A stretch of DNA of 64,000 bases from Halogeometricum rufum. GTDB taxonomy: Archaea > Halobacteriota > Halobacteria > Halobacteriales > Haloferacaceae. Under the pieces are notes generated by a model that worked only from the letters and a program-made list of their open reading frames with translations, was not told where the DNA came from and ran no database searches. The translations under genes were made by a program, and so were the position numbers. The DNA is taken from positions 620,001 to 684,000 of the forward strand of contig NZ_FOYT01000001.1 of assembly GCF_900112175.1 (NCBI RefSeq), given 5' to 3'. This document shows positions 1-56,599 of this stretch, in pieces. Positions within the stretch are counted from its first letter, which is position 1, and each line of letters starts with the position of its first letter.

Positions 1-1149
1 GTCGTGGCCGCGCGTCTCCAGGTCGAGTTCGACGTCCGTCTCGTTCATGCCTATCTCGCGGGAGGTGCGGTCGTGGCGGATGGCGTAGATGTTCGCCTGC
101 GCGTCGGCGATTATCGCCAGCAGGTCGTGCAGGGCGCCGGGGCGGTCCCGCAGGACCGTCCGCACCTTCAGGTAGCGCCCCGTCTCCACGAGGCCCCGCA
201 TCACGACGGTGGTGAGCTGGTTCATGTCGATGTTGCCGCCGCAGAGGGCGGGGACGACGACTTCGTCCGGCGCGAAGTCGAACTTCTCGAACAGGAGGGC
301 GGCGATGGGGACGGCGCCCGCCCCCTCGACCAGCGTCTTCGAGCGTTCCAGCAGGTACGTGAGGGAGACGGCTATCTCCTCGTCGGAGACGGTCACCACC
401 TCGTCGACGTACCGCTGGATGACCTCGAAGGGCTTGTCGCCGACGCGACGGGTGGCGATGCCGTCGGCGACGGTGTTCACGCTGTCGAGTTCCTGCACCG
501 ACCCCTTCTCCAGTGACTGGGCGACGCTCGACGCCCCCTCCGCCTGCACGCCGACGACGCGCACGTCGCCGAGTCGCTCCTTGACGGCCGTGGCGACGCC
601 GGAGATGAGGCCGCCGCCCCCGATGGGGACGACGACCGTCTCCACGTCGGGGCAGTCCTCGGCTATCTCCAGCCCGATGGTCCCCTGACCGGCCATCACG
701 TAGTCGTCGTCGAACGCGTGGACGTAGGTGCGGTTCTCCCGTTCCTCTATCTCGTGCGCCTTCGCCTGCGCCTCGTCGTAGTCCGCGCCGTGGAGGACCG
801 TCTCCGCGCCGTACCGCCGCGTCGCCTTCACCTTCGAGATGGGCGCGTGTTCGGGCATCACGACCTTCGAATCGACGCCCGCACGCGTCGCCGCGAGGGC
901 GACGCCCTGCGCGTGGTTGCCGGCACTCGCGGTGACGACGCCCGCGTCCTTCTCCGCCTCCGACAGCGTCGTGATGCGGTTCAGCGCGCCGCGAATCTTG
1001 AACGACCCGGTGCGCTGGTTGTTCTCCAGTTTCAGATAGACCGCGGCGCCGGTCATGTCGGAGAACGTGTGTGAGTAGTCCAGCGGTGTGTGCTTCGCGA
1101 CCCCCTCGATTCGGTCCCGGGCCGCCTCGATGTCGGCGAGCGAAATCAT
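1..1149 (-). CDS. ilvA: Threonine ammonia-lyase (threonine dehydratase), C-terminus cut by window edge
   Basis: PLP enzyme that deaminates threonine to 2-oxobutanoate, the first step toward isoleucine. Reading the minus strand from the ATG at 1149 gives 383 codons with no stop before base 1, so the last residues lie outside. The PLP lysine is Lys51 in the motif GSFKIRG, the substrate loop ASAGNHAQG is near residues 74-82, and a glycine-rich phosphate loop (IGGGGLISG) lies near 180. The last ~55 visible residues look like an ACT regulatory domain, pointing to allosteric control. The family is usually about 400 residues, so little is missing. A serine/threonine dehydratase of catabolic type is the alternative. 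Confidence 0.9.
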   Translation of the reverse strand, partial: MISLADIEAARDRIEGVAKHTPLDYSHTFSDMTGAAVYLKLENNQRTGSFKIRGALNRITTLSEAEKDAGVVTASAGNHAQGVALAATRAGVDSKVVMPEHAPISKVKATRRYGAETVLHGADYDEAQAKAHEIEERENRTYVHAFDDDYVMAGQGTIGLEIAEDCPDVETVVVPIGGGGLISGVATAVKERLGDVRVVGVQAEGASSVAQSLEKGSVQELDSVNTVADGIATRRVGDKPFEVIQRYVDEVVTVSDEEIAVSLTYLLERSKTLVEGAGAVPIAALLFEKFDFAPDEVVVPALCGGNIDMNQLTTVVMRGLVETGRYLKVRTVLRDRPGALHDLLAIIADAQANIYAIRHDRTSREIGMNETDVELDLETRGHD

Positions 1150-1453
1150 ACGCCGCGGTTCCGTGGCGCGACGTGTAAGCGTTCGGATTACAGTTTCGTT
1201 CGTTACAATTTATGCGAGCGCGGCGGTCGGCCCGCGCGGTCGCCGTGGCGGCGTCGGGGAGCGTTCGAGACGAGGCGACGATACCGACGGCTGGTCGTTC
1301 GTTCCTGCGTCTCAGAACGTGTAAAGGGGGGAATGCACGCGTGTGACGTGCAGTTACTCTACTGTTCGGATGGTATATAAACGTCCTGCAGGCGGAGTGG
1401 AAGTGAAATCGCAAGACAGCGGCGACCCGAACGCGCCGTCAGACGCCCGTCTG
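1150..1453. other. Intergenic region without a convincing gene
   Basis: About 300 bases between two minus-strand genes. It must hold the ilvA promoter. The open frames crossing it have the Arg/Pro/Ser-rich look of frame shadows. A tata-rich stretch (gtatataaac) near 1373-1382 resembles an archaeal TATA element on the plus strand but has no clear gene after it. Confidence 0.4.
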
Positions 1454-1882
1454 TCACTCGTCGTGCCCGGCGTCCGTCGGTTCGACGACGACCGAGTTCG
1501 CGGAGCGATAGCGTTCGACCCGGGTTCGAAGGTCACCGTCGCCCGGCCACCCGGCGTCGGCGCTCTCGTCTTTGCCGGCGGAGCGAACGCCGAGACGGGC
1601 CGCGTCGCCGACGTAGACGAACGCCCGGCCGCCGTCGGTCCGGGGGAGTTCGACTCGGACGTACAGGCCGGAGGCGACGCCCTCGTACCGGTCCAGCGTC
1701 GTCACCTCGTCGGTGCGGAGGAGGCGACCCGACACCGACCCGCCGGGTACGAGCGTCGGATACCGCCCCTCGACGCGGTGGAGTCCGTCGACGCGGGCGT
1801 CCGGCCCGAACGACCAGTCGTCGAGCAGTTCGTCCGCTCGGTCGGCGTCCGTCAGCGTCCCGTAGACGAAGAACGAGGGCAT
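1454..1882 (-). CDS. Gamma-glutamylcyclotransferase (AIG2-like) family protein
   Basis: A 142-residue protein with the N-terminal family signature FVYGTL (residues 5-10), followed by GRYPTLVPG and then LDRYEG with a downstream YVRVE strand, the order seen in the gamma-glutamylcyclotransferase-like fold. Members act on gamma-glutamyl amines or are uncharacterised. Haloarchaea use gamma-glutamylcysteine as a thiol, so a role in its turnover is possible but inferred. The ATG at 1882 is chosen because it puts the YGTL motif at the usual position 7-10; the longer open frame upstream is basic and unlike a haloarchaeal protein. It diverges from the MATE gene. Confidence 0.8.
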   Translation of the reverse strand: MPSFFVYGTLTDADRADELLDDWSFGPDARVDGLHRVEGRYPTLVPGGSVSGRLLRTDEVTTLDRYEGVASGLYVRVELPRTDGGRAFVYVGDAARLGVRSAGKDESADAGWPGDGDLRTRVERYRSANSVVVEPTDAGHDE

Positions 1883-1953
1883 GGATGTCGATTCACGCCG
1901 GAGCGACGTTCCGTTTCCGGTATCGTCAAGCGTCACACGTCGCTGGTGACTGT

Positions 1954-3333
1954 ATGAACGGCGGGCGACTCCGCGACGTCTGGACGCGAGTGTTCGCACT
2001 CGCGTGGCCCGTGATGGCCGAACAGACGACGCGGACGCTCATGCGCACCGTGGACATCGTCGTGACGGCCGCGCTCTCGCCCGCCGCCGTCGTCGCCATC
2101 GGCCTCGCGGACCTGTTCGCTCGTTTCCCCCTCCGCATCGGCCTCGGACTCGGCGGGGCCGCCATCGCCCTCTCCAGTCAGGACACCGGCAGCGGTGCCG
2201 ACGCCAACCGCGACGAGGCGGTGACGCAGGCTCTCCTCGTCGCCTTCCTCGTCGGCGTCCCGTTCGTCCTCGTCGGCGTCCTGTTCGGCGAGACGGCCGT
2301 GGGTCTGTTCCCCGCCAGCGACGACGCCGTCCGCCTCGGCGGCACCTACCTCGCCGTCGTCTTCGCCACCGCGCCCGCCAGACTCGTCGCCCTCGTCGCC
2401 GCCCGGTCGTTACAGGGCCTCGGCGACACGCTGACGCCGATGTACGTGAACGTCGTCGCCAACGTCGTCAACGTCTCCCTCTCGGTCGGACTCGGGTTCG
2501 GCCTCCTCGGCCTGCCCCGACTGGAGGTGTTCGGCGTCGGCCTCGCCACCTCGGCGGCGAACGCTCTCTCGGCCACCCTCCTCGTCGCCGCCGTCTACCG
2601 CCCCGAGTCGCCGGTGACGTTCGCGCGGCCGACGGACGCGACCATCGGCGCGCAACTCGTCCGCGTCAGCCTCCCCCGCGTCGCCGAGGGGTTCGCCGCC
2701 GAACTCGCGGAGTTCCCGTTCAACGCCCTCCTGCTATCGTTCGGGGACGTGGCGAACGCCGGCTTCCAGATCGGACGCCGCGTCTACCAGCAGGTGACGG
2801 GACCGCTCGTCCGCGGTTACAACACCGCCGCGAGCATCCTCGTCGGACAGGCACTCGGCCGAGGCGATCCGGCGACGGCCCGGTACGAGGGGTGGGCGAC
2901 GGCCGTCCTCGCTCTCGGCACCGTCGGCGTCGTCGGTCTCCTCCTCGTCGTCTTCGCCGACCCGGTGGTGGCCGTTCTCGGCTTCGGCGGGTCGGGCGAG
3001 GCGCTCACCTACGCCGCCGAGTTCGCGGTCGTCTACGGCCTCTCCGCGCCGCTTCTCGCCCTGTTCGTCGCGCTCTCCGGCGCGTTGCAGGGCGCGGGGG
3101 CGACGCGCATCCCCTTCGTCGCCCGCCTCACGGGGATGTTCGGCTTCTTCGTCGGCCTCTCGTACGTCGCCGTCGAGGTCCTCGGTACGGGCCTCGTCGG
3201 CGTCTACGTCGGCGTCTTCGCCGCCTACGCGTGGATGGGTCTCTTCGTCTTCGTCGCGTTCCGGTACGCCGACTGGGCGGGGACGGCGGCGGGACTCCTC
3301 CGAGAGCGAGGAAGCATCGAGGGCGACGACTGA
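1954..3333 (+). CDS. MATE family efflux transporter
   Basis: A 459-residue polytopic membrane protein. The N-terminus (FALAWPVMAEQTTRTLMRTVD) and the repeated halves, roughly residues 15-175 and 240-400, match multidrug and toxin extrusion proteins, which exchange cations (Na+ or H+) for organic substrates. About 12 hydrophobic segments are visible, and the sequence SLQGLGDTLTPMYVNV before the middle is typical of the family. The ATG at 1954 is preferred over an in-frame upstream start at 1885 because the added residues are not hydrophobic and would overlap the divergent gene. Substrate cannot be told from sequence. Confidence 0.88.
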   Translation: MNGGRLRDVWTRVFALAWPVMAEQTTRTLMRTVDIVVTAALSPAAVVAIGLADLFARFPLRIGLGLGGAAIALSSQDTGSGADANRDEAVTQALLVAFLVGVPFVLVGVLFGETAVGLFPASDDAVRLGGTYLAVVFATAPARLVALVAARSLQGLGDTLTPMYVNVVANVVNVSLSVGLGFGLLGLPRLEVFGVGLATSAANALSATLLVAAVYRPESPVTFARPTDATIGAQLVRVSLPRVAEGFAAELAEFPFNALLLSFGDVANAGFQIGRRVYQQVTGPLVRGYNTAASILVGQALGRGDPATARYEGWATAVLALGTVGVVGLLLVVFADPVVAVLGFGGSGEALTYAAEFAVVYGLSAPLLALFVALSGALQGAGATRIPFVARLTGMFGFFVGLSYVAVEVLGTGLVGVYVGVFAAYAWMGLFVFVAFRYADWAGTAAGLLRERGSIEGDD

Positions 3334-3426
3334 CGCCGTCGACGGCCGCCGGACGGCGTCGCCACTCGCCGTCGGCCGCGAAAGGAGAGCGGGGTGTCCA
3401 GCCCGTGTGCGTCGTTCGACCGCCGT

Positions 3427-4566
3427 CTACCGCTCGTCTATCGGCGTGAGCGTCAGGTCCTCCTCGCCGACGTAGCGCGCGCGCGGTCGGATGAGGCGGT
3501 TGTCCTCGTACTGTTCGATGACGTGCGCTATCCACCCGCCGACGCGGGACATGGCGAAGATGGGCGTGTAGATGTCCACGGGGATGCCCATCTGGTAGTA
3601 CGTCGAGGCGGAGTAGAAGTCCACGTTCGGCGCGAGGCCCTTCTCCTCGCCGATGTACTCCTCGATGGCGACCGAGTAGTCGTACCACTTCATGTCGCCG
3701 GCGGCCTCGCCGAGTGCCTCGGACTTCTCGCCGAGAATCTTCGCGCGCGGGTCCTTGACGTTGTAGACGCGGTGGCCGAACCCGGGGACGCGGCGGCCCT
3801 CTTCGAGGGCGTCCGTGACCCACTTCTTCGGGTCTTTGTCGCTCTCGTCTATCTCCTTGAGCATCTTCATCACGTTCGCGTTCGCGCCGCCGTGCAGCGA
3901 CCCCGCGAGGGTGCCGACGGCCGACGTGACCGCGCTGTGCAGGTCCGAGAGCGTCGAGGCGGTCACCTTGGCCGAGAACGTCGAGGCGTTCAGGCCGTGG
4001 TCGGCGTGCAGGACGAGTGCCATGTCGAACGTCTCCGCCAGCACGTCGTCCGGTTCCTCGCCGTTGAGCATGTAGAGAAAGTTCTCCGCGTGGCCGAGGT
4101 CCTGGCGCGGACTCACCACGTCCTCGCCGTTCCGCAGGCGATTGAACGCCGCCAGCGCCGTCGGAATCTTCGCCGTGATGCGCCGCCCCTTGCGGACGTT
4201 CGCGTCGAGGTCCGTCACGTCCTCGTGGTCCGCGTCGTCGTCGTACGCCGACAGCGACGAGACGACGGTCCGCAACGCCGCCATCGGCACCTCGTCGGCC
4301 TCGGCGAGCGCCCGAATCTCGTCGAGCACGCCGTCGTCGAGTTCGCGCTCCTCCGCCATCGTGGACGAGAACTCGTCCAACTGTTCGCGCGTCGGTAGCT
4401 CCCCGTGCCAGAGGAGGTAGACGACTTCTTCGTACGAAGCGTCTCGGGCGAGGTCTTCGATGGCGTACCCGCGATACACGAGTTCGCCGGCGTCCCCGTC
4501 GATGAAGCTCAGTTCGGACTCGGCAACGAGAACGCCTTCCAGACCCCGCTTCAGGTCGTCTGACAT
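3427..4566 (-). CDS. citZ: Citrate synthase
   Basis: Condenses oxaloacetate and acetyl-CoA to citrate, the entry to the TCA cycle. The 379 residues match the short archaeal/Gram-positive type. Catalytic residues are visible: a histidine pair in LHADHGLNAST (His187/His190), His265 in GFGHRVYN, and Asp316 in NVDFYSA. SLHGGANANVM near residue 223 is the CoA/substrate loop. The ATG at 4566 follows an AT-rich promoter element at about -27. It is a single gene, convergent with the MATE transporter. A 2-methylcitrate synthase is the closest alternative, but nothing nearby suggests propionate metabolism. Confidence 0.94.
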   Translation of the reverse strand: MSDDLKRGLEGVLVAESELSFIDGDAGELVYRGYAIEDLARDASYEEVVYLLWHGELPTREQLDEFSSTMAEERELDDGVLDEIRALAEADEVPMAALRTVVSSLSAYDDDADHEDVTDLDANVRKGRRITAKIPTALAAFNRLRNGEDVVSPRQDLGHAENFLYMLNGEEPDDVLAETFDMALVLHADHGLNASTFSAKVTASTLSDLHSAVTSAVGTLAGSLHGGANANVMKMLKEIDESDKDPKKWVTDALEEGRRVPGFGHRVYNVKDPRAKILGEKSEALGEAAGDMKWYDYSVAIEEYIGEEKGLAPNVDFYSASTYYQMGIPVDIYTPIFAMSRVGGWIAHVIEQYEDNRLIRPRARYVGEEDLTLTPIDER

Positions 4567-4586
4567 ACCAATCAGGTTCCCATCGG

Positions 4587-4598
4587 TATCAAAAAAGC
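4587..4598 (-). promoter_or_regulatory. Likely TATA element of citrate synthase
   Basis: On the minus strand this reads gcttttttgata, centred about 27 bases before the ATG. In an otherwise G+C-rich stretch this is the position expected for a leaderless haloarchaeal transcript. Confidence 0.55.
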
Positions 4599-4832
4599 GT
4601 TATCGTTCACACCAAAACGAAATCGACTATTGCCGAAAAACGGTTTCGACAGCCGCGCTCTCGGGCGTCGAGGTATCGGGACCGGCGCGACGGGACGCGG
4701 AGGGGCCTCTCCCCACGTACCGCCGTGACACGGCCCGTCCCGCCGACACGGAGATATTGCCGCTTCGCGTAGAACGTCCGACGGACGTCGTCGCTAACAA
4801 ACCTTTTCACCGAACGACGTGAACCTCGGCGT

Positions 4833-6056
4833 ATGAACCCCGAGGACGTGGAGTACGAACCGGTGAGCGTCAAGGAGGTGCTCGCCGAGATGAAAGACAC
4901 GGCGGAACTCCTCATCGACCTCTCGTTCTCCGCGGTCCTCAACGGGAGCGACGACATCGCCCGCGAGGTGCTGGAACTGGAGGAGCGGATGGACGTGCTG
5001 AAACTGCAGGGACGGATGAGCCTGCTCATGGCCGCCCGCACGCCCGAGGACGCCGAGCAACTCGCCTCCGTCCTCGGCGTCGTCGGCGCGGCGGAGAAGA
5101 TAGCCAACGCCGCGGGCGACATCGCCAAGGTGGTGCTGGAGGACATCGGCCTCCCGGACGCGATTCGCTCGGCCCTCCCGGAGGCGGCGGAGATGCTCGT
5201 CCGCGCCACCGTCGTCGCCGACTCCGACTACTGCGGTCGGTCGCTGGCCGACGTGAACATGGAGACGGAGACGGGCGTGCGCGTCATCGCCATCCGTCGG
5301 CAGTCGGTGACCGGCAAGCGCCGGTGGATACTCAACCCGAACCGCGAGACGACGATACAGGCCGACGACGTCCTCCTCCTCCGCGGCCCGCAGACGGGCG
5401 TCGCGACGGTGTTCGAGACGGCGACGACCGCCCCGTACGAACTGCCCGAGACGCACGACCCGCCCATCGAGGACCTCGAACGCGCCGTGGACTCCATCAT
5501 CCTGATGAAGGACATGAGCGAACTCGCCGTGGACCTCGCCTACGGGTCGGTGCTGTTCGACTCCGAGGACGTGGCCGAGGAAGTCGAGGAACTGGAAGCC
5601 GAGGTGGACGCCCTGAAGTCGCGCTTCGAGGCGTGGGTGCTGCAGGCGGCCCAACGCGTCGACGACCCGGTCCAACTCCGCGGCCTCGTCCACATCGCCT
5701 CGGCGACGGAGGTCATCTCCGACGCCGCCCTCGAAATCTCCGAGGGCGTCCTCCGCGGTATCGACGCCCACCCCGTCGTCGCCGCCGCCGTCGAGGAGTC
5801 CGACGAGATTATCGTCCGCCTCCACGTCGGCGGTGAGAGTTCGCTGGCGAACGAGACGCTCGGCGACCGCATGGTGAAGACCGAGACGGGGATGCGCGTC
5901 ATCGCCGTCCGCCGCGCGGACGGGAGCGAGTGGGTGGTCCAACCCGGTCCGACCACCGCGCTGCACCCCGGCGACGCCCTCATCGCGAAGGGCACCCGCG
6001 CGGGGGCCGAACGCCTCGGCGAACTCCTCGACGACCCGCAGGCGTTCGAGGAGTGA
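4833..6056 (+). CDS. PhoU / TrkA-C tandem-repeat regulatory protein
   Basis: A 407-residue soluble protein made of two similar halves. Each half begins with a PhoU-like helical segment (MKDTAELLIDLSFSAVL near residue 15; MKDMSELAVDLAYGSVL near 225) and ends in a TrkA-C (RCK_C) domain (ETETGVRVIAIRR and KTETGMRVIAVRR). RCK_C domains bind ligands and gate K+ or other ion transporters; PhoU-like helices form regulatory bundles. No membrane segment or nucleotide-binding RCK_N domain is visible, so it is probably a regulatory partner rather than a channel. No transporter is adjacent. The internal duplication is clear by eye. Confidence 0.82.
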   Translation: MNPEDVEYEPVSVKEVLAEMKDTAELLIDLSFSAVLNGSDDIAREVLELEERMDVLKLQGRMSLLMAARTPEDAEQLASVLGVVGAAEKIANAAGDIAKVVLEDIGLPDAIRSALPEAAEMLVRATVVADSDYCGRSLADVNMETETGVRVIAIRRQSVTGKRRWILNPNRETTIQADDVLLLRGPQTGVATVFETATTAPYELPETHDPPIEDLERAVDSIILMKDMSELAVDLAYGSVLFDSEDVAEEVEELEAEVDALKSRFEAWVLQAAQRVDDPVQLRGLVHIASATEVISDAALEISEGVLRGIDAHPVVAAAVEESDEIIVRLHVGGESSLANETLGDRMVKTETGMRVIAVRRADGSEWVVQPGPTTALHPGDALIAKGTRAGAERLGELLDDPQAFEE

Positions 6057-41049: not shown

Positions 41050-41066
41050 ATGCCGCCTCCCGGATT
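41050..41066 (-). repeat. tRNA-Phe 3'-end fragment (candidate att copy)
   Basis: Seventeen bases identical to the 3' terminus of tRNA-Phe (compare 41172-41188) lie 122 bases downstream of the gene. An imperfect inverted repeat based on it follows: cggattcgacccg at 41061-41073 against cgggttcagaatccg at 41116-41130. Confidence 0.8.
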
Positions 41067-41172
41067 CGACCCGAGTCGAGACGGACCGCTCGCTTCGCTC
41101 GCGGGTGCGGCTCGCCGGGTTCAGAATCCGCTCGGGGGAGTCTTTTCACCGCTCACTTCGTTCGCAGGAAAA

Positions 41173-41958: not shown

Positions 41959-41980
41959 GGCTCGGGCGGAGTCGAACCAC
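41959..41980 (-). repeat. tRNA-Val 3'-end fragment, distal copy
   Basis: Twenty-two bases identical to 42184-42205, that is the acceptor and T-arm end of tRNA-Val. It lies 108 bases from the next copy. Confidence 0.85.
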
Positions 41981-42066
41981 TCCGTCGACCTCGCTACGCT
42001 CGGTCGCCGCAAGGTTCGACCGCCCTCACAGATGTTTCTGGGCTCACGTTGTTCGCCACAGAAACA

Positions 42067-42088
42067 TGGGCTCGGGCGGAGTCGAACC
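42067..42088 (-). repeat. tRNA-Val 3'-end fragment, proximal copy
   Basis: Twenty-two bases identical to 42182-42203 of tRNA-Val, including the discriminator. It is directly preceded by the right arm of the inverted repeat ending at 42067. Confidence 0.85.
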
Positions 42089-42181
42089 CCGGTCACGCCG
42101 TTCGCTTCGCTCACTTCGTTCCCTGCTTCGACTCGCCCTCTCGTCGCAGAAATCCTGCTCGCTGTCGCTCGCAGATTTCAG

Positions 42182-42254
42182 TGGGCTCGGGCGGAGTCGA
42201 ACCACCGATCTCTTCCTTGTAAGGGAAGCGTCATAACCACTAGACCACGAGCCC
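42182..42254 (-). tRNA. tRNA-Val (TAC)
   Basis: 73 bases on the minus strand: acceptor gggctcg/cgagccc, anticodon stem cttcc/ggaag with loop cttacaa (anticodon TAC), T arm with loop ttcgact, discriminator A. No intron. Extra copies of its 3' end lie downstream. Confidence 0.94.
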
Positions 42255-49309: not shown

Positions 49310-49431
49310 CGCTCGTCGCGTAGCGCCGGGAAACTGGAGCGTCCTGACGGAGTCCCAGACGATGAGTCTGGGGCAGGTCAGGTCGCGAACGGACCGAAGT
49401 GAAGTGAGCGTCCTGACGGAGATTTGAACTC
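49310..49431. repeat. Long direct repeat, copy 1, ending inside tRNA-Arg-1
   Basis: This 122-base segment recurs at 49601-49728 with one difference: a 6-base insertion in the loop of an internal hairpin. It holds two copies of the tRNA-Arg 3' end: a 14-base fragment at 49339-49352 and the real 3' end of tRNA-Arg-1. The hairpin is cccagac (354-360)/gtctggg (366-372) with loop gatga. Confidence 0.92.
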
Positions 49432-49481
49432 CGGTCCCTGGCTCCGCAAGCCAAGAGGATAGTCCACTACCCTATCAGGAC
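49409..49481 (-). tRNA. tRNA-Arg (GCG), copy 1
   Basis: 73 bases on the minus strand: acceptor gtcctga/tcaggac, anticodon loop ttgcgga (anticodon GCG, Arg CGC/CGU), T stem cggag/ctccg with loop ttcaaat, discriminator G. Identical to copy 2 at 49837-49909 except at position 7 (A7 here, G7 there). Confidence 0.93.
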
Positions 49482-49836
49482 TCATCTCTGGATACAGCGC
49501 ATTCGCTTAAGACGGTTACGATGTCGGTACCGTTCACGGGGACGTTCGTTCGCCACGTACCGTCGGGTGGACGGGGACTCGGACCCGACAGAATCCGCTT
49601 CGCTCGTCGCGTAGCGCCGGGAAACTGGAGCGTCCTGACGGAGTCCCAGACGAACGAAGTGAGTCTGGGGCAGGTCAGGTCGCGAACGGACCGAAGTGAA
49701 GTGAGCGTCCTGACGGAGATTTGAACTCACTCGTTCTGTTCGCTGTCGCTCACGTCACTCGTTGCTCAAATCACCGCGTACGAGTTTTACAGCGTGTACG
49801 GTCGCTCGCGTTGCTCACGACGTAGCACGCTGAAAA
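49482..49836. other. Intergenic repeat region between two tRNA-Arg genes
   Basis: 355 bases without a gene. They hold most of direct-repeat copy 2, tRNA-Arg 3' fragments at 49630-49643 and 49705-49728, and runs of words such as cgctgtcgctcacgtcactcg. No open frame with haloarchaeal amino-acid composition is seen. Confidence 0.8.
49601..49728. repeat. Long direct repeat, copy 2, ending in a tRNA-Arg 3' fragment
   Basis: A 128-base copy of 49310-49431 with a 6-base insertion in the internal hairpin loop (cccagac 645-651, loop gaacgaagtga, gtctggg 663-669). Whereas copy 1 runs into a full tRNA-Arg, copy 2 ends after 24 bases of tRNA 3' sequence (49705-49728) and then diverges. Confidence 0.92.
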
Positions 49837-49909
49837 CGTCCTGACGGAGATTTGAACTCCGGTCCCTGGCTCCGCAAGCCAAGAGGATAGTCCACTACCC
49901 TACCAGGAC
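49837..49909 (-). tRNA. tRNA-Arg (GCG), copy 2
   Basis: 73 bases on the minus strand with the same arms and GCG anticodon as copy 1. The single difference makes the last acceptor pair G7-U66 instead of A7-U66. Both copies fold normally, so both may be functional. Confidence 0.92.
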
Positions 49910-55562: not shown

Positions 55563-55637
55563 GGGCCCTTAGCTCAGTCTGGTTAGAGCGCTCGGCTCAT
55601 AACCGAGTGGTCGATGGTTCGAATCCGTCAGGGCCCA
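55563..55637 (+). tRNA. tRNA with CAT anticodon (Ile2 or elongator Met)
   Basis: 75 bases: acceptor gggccct/agggccc, anticodon stem ctcgg/ccgag with loop ctcataa (anticodon CAT), T loop ttcgaat, discriminator A. The general shape resembles tRNA-Ile2 (modified CAT, reads AUA) more than elongator Met, but I cannot settle this by eye. It is not an initiator. The integrase gene begins 131 bases downstream, so its 3' end is the probable integration site. Confidence 0.93.
55616..55637 (+). other. Candidate attachment site at the tRNA 3' end
   Basis: The T arm and acceptor 3' end of the CAT tRNA, followed directly by element DNA with a tyrosine integrase. The second att copy is not present between here and 64000, so it should lie further right, outside the window. 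Confidence 0.6.
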
Positions 55638-55647
55638 TAGAAACGAC

Positions 55648-55668
55648 GGAGGTTCTTCGAGAGCCTCC
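55648..55668 (+). terminator. Hairpin after the CAT tRNA
   Basis: ggaggttct and agagcctcc form a 9-pair stem (one G-U pair) with a 3-base loop tcg, 10 bases past the tRNA end. It may end tRNA transcription or be part of the element's integrase-binding region. Confidence 0.5.
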
Positions 55669-55768
55669 CTCGTCCATTCTGTGGCCTCCGCTCGGAACTC
55701 GTGAGACAGTCCTCTGCAGCGTTCGGTACGTTCCTTTGCGCTCGTGGTCGCCGCAAGGAGACCAAAGG

Positions 55769-56599
55769 ATGTACGAGCTCAAACGAGACGACGTATTGGA
55801 CGATTACAGGCGGTTTCTGAAGGTCGAGCGCGGGCTGAACGAGACGACCATCGAACAGCACACGACGATGCTGCGGGTGTTCCTCGACCGCTACGAGCAG
55901 ATCCGTCCGCCGCAGGAACTCGCCAAGGAGTTCCAAGAGCACCTGATGGACGAGGGCTACTCGAACAGCCACGTCAACAACACGATGAAGGCGATTGATT
56001 ACTACTACGAGTTCCACGGCGAGCAGTTCGACTTCAACCGCCTCAATCGCCGCAAGAAGTTACCCGAGACGCTCAGCGAGAATCAGGTGAAGCGTATCCT
56101 GTACGCGTGCGACACCTACCGCGACTTCGCGATCATGAAGACGCTCACCTCCAGCGGGGTGCGCGCCTCGGAGCTGTGCGATCTGGACGTCGTCGACGCG
56201 GACCTGGACAACCGGACGCTTCTCATCCGTCAGGGGAAGTTCGACAAGGACGGCTACGCGAAGATCTCCGATACCTGCGCTGAGGCGATCAGTCAGTACC
56301 TCGAACGGCGGGACGACGACGCCGACCCCTTGTTCCTCTCTCGAACCGGTGACCGTCTGACTCGCAACGGGTTACTCCAGTTGGTCAAGCGACGGGCGCG
56401 GTCGGCTGGCATCGAGCAGAACGTGACGGTCCACATGTTCCGCCACTACTTCGCGACGAAGATGATCGAGAACGGTGCCGACATCTCGATCGTGAAGGAG
56501 CTGCTGCGTCACGACGACATCACCTCGACGATGAAGTATCTGCACATCAGCGGGGAGGCGCTGAGTGAGCAGTACGACCGGTACGTCGATGACGTCTGA
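55769..56599 (+). CDS. Tyrosine recombinase / integrase
   Basis: A 276-residue phage-type integrase. The SAM-like N-terminal domain (residues 1-90; LDDYRRFLKVERGLNETTIEQHTTML) precedes the catalytic core with the full set: Arg132 in SSGVRASELCDL, Lys157 in RQGKFDKDG, His222 and Arg225 in VHMFRHYFATKM, His248 in LLRHDDITSTM, and nucleophile Tyr257 in KYLHISGE. It catalyses integration and excision at the neighbouring tRNA. A Shine-Dalgarno-like aaggag lies about 10 bases before the ATG at 55769. Confidence 0.93.
   Translation: MYELKRDDVLDDYRRFLKVERGLNETTIEQHTTMLRVFLDRYEQIRPPQELAKEFQEHLMDEGYSNSHVNNTMKAIDYYYEFHGEQFDFNRLNRRKKLPETLSENQVKRILYACDTYRDFAIMKTLTSSGVRASELCDLDVVDADLDNRTLLIRQGKFDKDGYAKISDTCAEAISQYLERRDDDADPLFLSRTGDRLTRNGLLQLVKRRARSAGIEQNVTVHMFRHYFATKMIENGADISIVKELLRHDDITSTMKYLHISGEALSEQYDRYVDDV

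Follow-up and report, generated by a model that had tools for sequence, protein, structure and literature searches.

Hairpin repeats anchored at tRNA genes of haloarchaea

Genes for tRNAs are common docking sites for mobile DNA in archaea, and elements integrated there leave duplications in which a copy of the tRNA 3′ end, starting near the T-loop, lies downstream of the gene and on the same strand (PMC3119063, PMC9897764, PMC8371274); in haloarchaea, partial tRNA copies are known to occur next to prophages (PMC3119063). A different arrangement appears to exist in E. coli, where tandem 178-bp repeats distal to tyrT (rtT RNA) include the last 19 bp of the tRNA-Tyr gene; this is, to our knowledge, a single locus in enterobacteria and not known to form a hairpin from sense and antisense T-arms. 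Two further systems invite comparison. Integron attC sites are imperfect palindromes which fold in one strand, with an unpaired inner part and a variable terminal structure, repeated at the end of each unit of an array whose cassettes are gained or lost whole (PMC8946536). REP and REPIN repeats, as generally understood, are short noncoding hairpins with conserved mismatches, present in many copies per genome but dispersed.

The DNA analyzed here, referred to as the window, is a stretch of 64,000 nucleotides from Halogeometricum rufum (assembly GCF_900112175.1, contig NZ_FOYT01000001.1, positions 620,001 to 684,000). A sequence-only reading of it had noted two 22-base copies of the 3′ end of tRNA-Val downstream of that gene, one of them next to an inverted repeat, and had claimed that similar spacing at tRNA-Phe and tRNA-Arg loci made this a recurrent behavior rather than an accident. 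The observation holds and the claim is supported, and the locus is one instance of a feature found throughout the haloarchaea. As in the tyrT repeats, tandem units each hold the 3′ end of the tRNA, but here they follow many different tRNAs across a class and share a hairpin plan. No description of this family was found in the open-access literature searched, which takes in few subscription papers and no preprints, and not all of the searching was aimed at this question.

The units downstream of tRNA-Val and their anatomy

The two units following tRNA-Val(tac) are about 110 bp each and end in perfect 22-base matches to the tRNA 3′ end, 93–114 and 201–222 bases past the gene (Table 1). The inverted repeat lies directly against the first of these copies, and the parallels at tRNA-Phe and tRNA-Arg(gcg) are real. 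What had gone unnoticed is that each of the two Val copies is preceded by a partial antisense copy of the T-arm, so that each unit can fold into a hairpin.

Table 1. Features of the window and the basis on which they were assigned
Position	Strand	Feature	Basis
42181..42254	-	tRNA-Val(tac); its last 22 bases (GGTTC to the discriminator base) are the sequence that is copied	ARAGORN; Rfam RF00005
42149..42180	-	Unit 1, hairpin 1 (GAAATC..GATTTC base, tandem G-A mismatch, GACA loop; mini-hairpin at 42157)	Mini-hairpin listing
42076..42137	-	Unit 1, hairpin 2: antisense T-arm, inner hairpin, sense T-arm	Covariance-model hit at 662076-662137 of contig C1, E 4.9e-11
42067..42088	-	Unit 1, copy of the tRNA-Val 3′ end	22/22 match
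42032..42067	-	Unit 2, hairpin 1 (inverted repeat ATGTTTCTG..CAGAAACAT)	Mini-hairpin listing
41966..42025	-	Unit 2, hairpin 2, a diverged form	Arm matching; not found by the covariance model
41959..41980	-	Unit 2, copy of the tRNA-Val 3′ end	22/22 match
41051..41172	-	Unit after tRNA-Phe, ending in a copy at 41051-41072; hairpin 1 with TTTT..AAAA base just after the tRNA	20/22 match
49705..49835	-	131-bp unit after tRNA-Arg(gcg) at 49837-49909, with a copy at 49706-49727; exactly absent after the second tRNA-Arg(gcg)	22/22 match; covariance-model hit
49630..49704	-	Type II unit: copy of only the last 15 or so bases of the tRNA, hairpin on the opposite strand	Sequence comparison
49339..49407	-	The same type II unit directly after tRNA-Arg(gcg) at 49408-49481 (site empty of the 131-bp unit); first 45 bases identical	Sequence comparison
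55607..56599	+	ORF directly after tRNA-Met(cat), translation resembling a XerC/D-type tyrosine recombinase	By eye
58853	-	GA-tandem, GAA-loop mini-hairpin (CCGAGCGAAGCGAGG) not near any tRNA	Mini-hairpin listing

Chance is excluded as the source of the copies. With one fixed threshold, 21 of 44 tRNAs of this genome, identified with Rfam and ARAGORN, have a copy of their own 3′ end within 500 bp downstream, whereas the same test gave 2 of 44 upstream (tandem tRNAs of the same kind), 0 of 44 on the opposite strand, 11 of 1882 when the ends of other tRNAs were used, and 0 of 2200 mononucleotide shuffles (Fisher p about 1e-29). Relatives were sampled in part (31, 11, 30, and 1 tRNAs of the genomes designated G001, G002, G004, and G003); two congeners gave 13 of 31 and 13 of 30, against 3 of 922 and 6 of 862 for swapped ends, and a third, sampled at 11 tRNAs, gave 3. 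With a lower threshold, 24 of 45 tRNAs carry copies, 36 segments in all and up to three in a row, although one of these is a tRNA-Asp whose first segment is simply the next tRNA-Asp gene; two false intron-tRNA calls were left out of this set, and the two tRNA-Arg(gcg) genes and tRNA-Trp were not among the 45 and were considered separately.

Comparison of the segments, not every one of which was read by eye, shows one plan. A unit is typically 100–150 bp and starts at the end of the tRNA or of the previous copy; it holds hairpin 1, often T-rich at its start, and then, in most units, hairpin 2, which is made of an antisense copy of the T-arm (such as GGGATTTGAA), an inner part with a hairpin of variable length, and the sense T-arm running on into the 3′ half of the acceptor stem. 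In an alignment of 35 hairpin-2 sequences the only invariant inner positions are two GA dinucleotides facing each other, which may be read as tandem sheared G-A pairs; a kink-turn does not fit by eye, as there is no suitable three-base bulge. In the RNAalifold structure (alignment A1) 96.7% of cells pair, against 89.4% in shuffles, with 31 two-sided changes, and 0 of 500 shuffles reach either value. Part of this covariation is automatic in the outer arm, because both arms derive from the local tRNA, but the inner pairs at columns 17/48, 20/45, and 21/44 are not tRNA sequence. Specificity of the antisense arm is only weakly supported: the arm of the own tRNA was at least as good as the best other arm in only 13 of 31, 3 of 23, and 10 of 21 units, because T-arms are so alike. 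For hairpin 1, alignment of 24 tRNA-Asp units with MAFFT followed by RNAalifold aligned it badly and revealed no common structure; it does, however, have long stems of differing sequence, with 9 or more pairs in 35 of 122 spacers against 6 of 366 shuffles. A second form, here called type II, copies only the last 15 or so bases of the tRNA and has its hairpin on the other strand.

Association with tRNA genes, distribution, and turnover

A covariance model of hairpin 2, built without most of the acceptor part, gave 31 hits in the genome at E up to 1, of which 23 had E below 1e-6. All 23 lie downstream of a tRNA and on its strand, unlike REP-type repeats; of the 8 weaker hits, 3 (E 0.02-0.4) are not at tRNAs. 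Mini-hairpins of the window with tandem GA and GNA or GNNA loops are also mostly near tRNAs, with one exception (Table 1). Twenty of the strong hits are within the local array, including that of an intron-bearing tRNA-Trp. The other three are displaced. At tRNA-Arg(ccg) a 4.2-kb insertion (about 875-5068, minus strand, of the stretch 41500-47500 of contig C7) with several small ORFs and a tyrosine integrase (PF00589) next to the far tRNA-end copy lies between tRNA and unit; at tRNA-Pro(tgg) and tRNA-Thr(cgt) the units, assigned by the matching tRNA ends, are about 32 and 48 kb away (C1:403130-435501 and C1:1113930-1161759), and each is directly preceded by a second short copy of the tRNA end, as expected for integrated elements. 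The sequence after the displaced tRNA-Pro unit (TCGCGTATATAAAAGA..., in C1:401800-404700) resembles that directly after tRNA-Pro itself, so more than the tRNA end is duplicated there. The bases after the hairpin match the acceptor stem of the local tRNA best or tied best in 20 of 23 strong hits; the exceptions are two tRNA-Gly(gcc) units, which carry an interrupted tail, and one decayed tRNA-Val(gac) unit. A similarly interrupted tail occurs in a tRNA-Lys array of another genome, G042 (positions 1041-1240 of locus L346), where the T-arm copy runs on into a different acceptor-like sequence that is itself part of a palindrome.

The model hits 110 of 116 genomes of a sample of the class, and 45 of 46 genera; of 29 loci examined there, 28 have an upstream tRNA with a downstream copy of at least 19 of 22 bases. 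In a phylum sample of 246 genomes, searched under stricter filters, the 39 with hits all belong to the order of the window genome, while 4 others of the order and all 203 outside it had none. These 39 genomes hold 82 hits, 77 of them 34-354 bp downstream of a tRNA on its strand, and the acceptor part matches 8 or 9 of 9 in 64 of those 77. Of the 5 remaining hits, 3 lie within 50 bases of the start of the stretch examined, with no upstream sequence to inspect; the other 2 had 475 and 1599 bases upstream and no tRNA. Direct inspection of two haloarchaea without model hits found copies at 1 of 15 and 3 of 15 sampled tRNAs; in three genomes outside the order 2 of 28 tRNAs scored, one being a tandem tRNA gene and one lying beside a weak tRNA-like hit.

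Units are present or absent as a whole. The two tRNA-Arg(gcg) genes of the window differ by exactly one 131-bp unit, two tRNA-Tyr genes of the genome differ by one 122-bp unit, and a tRNA-Lys array in another genome has four consecutive identical units of 111 bp. At tRNA-Val, five congeneric genomes all have one or two units, but only two share their first unit (in G001 the copy is imperfect and fell below the threshold of the comparison), and at tRNA-Arg(tcg) hairpin 1 is kept while the inner part of hairpin 2 differs. The start of the recombinase-like ORF which follows tRNA-Met(cat) in the window also follows this tRNA in G004, but not in G001, where three hairpin units stand instead. Deletion between the 22-base repeats would explain losses.

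Possible nature of the repeats

Tentatively, the copies are best explained as the ends of members of a family of DNA-level repeats whose tRNA-sense strand acts while single-stranded, for example when displaced by transcription or replication, folding into very stable mini-hairpins. Whole units would be lost and multiplied by recombination or slippage between the 22-base direct repeats, and new units would enter at the tRNA 3′ end by strand exchange at that sequence, either by homologous import from other strains or through a recombinase recognizing the folded site; however, no recombinase, no insertion event of known direction, and no single-stranded state has been shown. Facing GA mismatches would make sense in a folded single strand, and the sense strand is the more stable one in 98 of 134 units with RNA energies and in 92 of 134 with DNA energies, against 52 and 54 of 100 control stretches. 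In 128 distinct units (143 before those after tandem tRNA-Asp genes that had been counted from both genes were merged; units containing a full neighboring tRNA were removed) the tandem-GA hairpins have 55 GNA, 19 GNYA, 0 GNRA, and 23 other loops, while the rRNA strand of a congener gave 11 GNRA, 2 GNYA, and 4 GNA, albeit with a different stem criterion. An independent set of 75 hairpins had 29 GNA, 3 GNYA, 0 GNRA, and 42 others, one without a stem. GNA and GNNA loops with at least two G-C pairs are reported to be extraordinarily stable DNA mini-hairpins (PMC4686876). The preference for DNA is not strong, as G-U cells exceed A-C cells in alignment A1 (30 against 7, 16 of the 30 at one pair), as RNA folding would give, though over all stems the counts are 39 and 33.

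It is possible, though less likely, that the units act as RNA, that is, as a structured 3′ trailer of the tRNA transcript serving as terminator, processing signal, or source of a small RNA, with the antisense arm hiding or presenting a second tRNA-like 3′ end. The conserved pairing with compensatory changes, the G-U cells of A1, and the sense-strand placement are in line with this, as are the T-rich start of many hairpins 1 and the many spacers (57 of 122) which begin with TTT or TTC. On the other hand, GNRA loops are absent from the 97 tandem-GA hairpin loops of 3-4 bases and from the independent set, a G-U excess is not seen over all stems, no Rfam family besides tRNA was found in the window at gathering scores, and closely related genomes lack units at given tRNAs. 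Further, T-runs near the tRNA end (at least 4 T in the first 15 bases in 21 of 138 spacers, at least 3 in 61) would stop transcription before hairpin 2 in some loci.

That the copies are scars of attachment sites, the left and right ends of integrated elements which deleted their middle parts, is unlikely. Like attachment cores, the copies start in the T-loop and end at the tRNA end, and real insertions at tRNA genes do occur in this genome. However, at the three displaced loci the inserted DNA ends in its own short tRNA copy, without an antisense arm by eye, and the hairpin unit lies beyond it, so the unit was there apart from the insertion. The units also have a narrow size range (median 115 bp, 38-205), without room for ordinary genes, and share an inner motif across tRNAs. 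A viral or plasmid origin found no support, since one two-unit stretch gave no match in phages or plasmids and two exact hairpin patterns gave none in viral contigs, but these queries were narrow and the evidence is weak.

Also unlikely is an integron-like system, in which the tRNA 3′ end would work like an attI site and a haloarchaeal recombinase, or replication-linked strand exchange, would insert, remove, and reshuffle gene-less hairpin cassettes whose folded sense strand is an attC-like site built from the T-arm of the tRNA; the imperfect palindrome folding in one strand, with its mismatched center and variable terminal part, is shared with attC, so the units may work like attC sites, but the cassettes carry no genes, the site is archaeal and made of tRNA sequence, and membership is not claimed, as no integrase or recombination was shown. 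Least likely are neutral debris from occasional duplication of the tRNA end and fold-back copying errors, for although exact tandem copies, extended palindromes around some copies, and fast turnover between species would fit, the same inner motif and pairing recur across tRNAs and species, hairpin 1 keeps its long stems, and the hairpin was found in none of the 203 genomes outside the order, although tRNA ends are everywhere.

A repeat family that copies the docking sequence after many tRNA genes, in 110 of 116 haloarchaeal genomes searched, bears on how integrases choose their sites, on why arrays persist although 22-base direct repeats should delete them easily, and on whether folded single-stranded DNA has roles in archaea as attC has in bacteria; as genes differing by exactly one unit exist side by side in one genome, the question is also a testable one.
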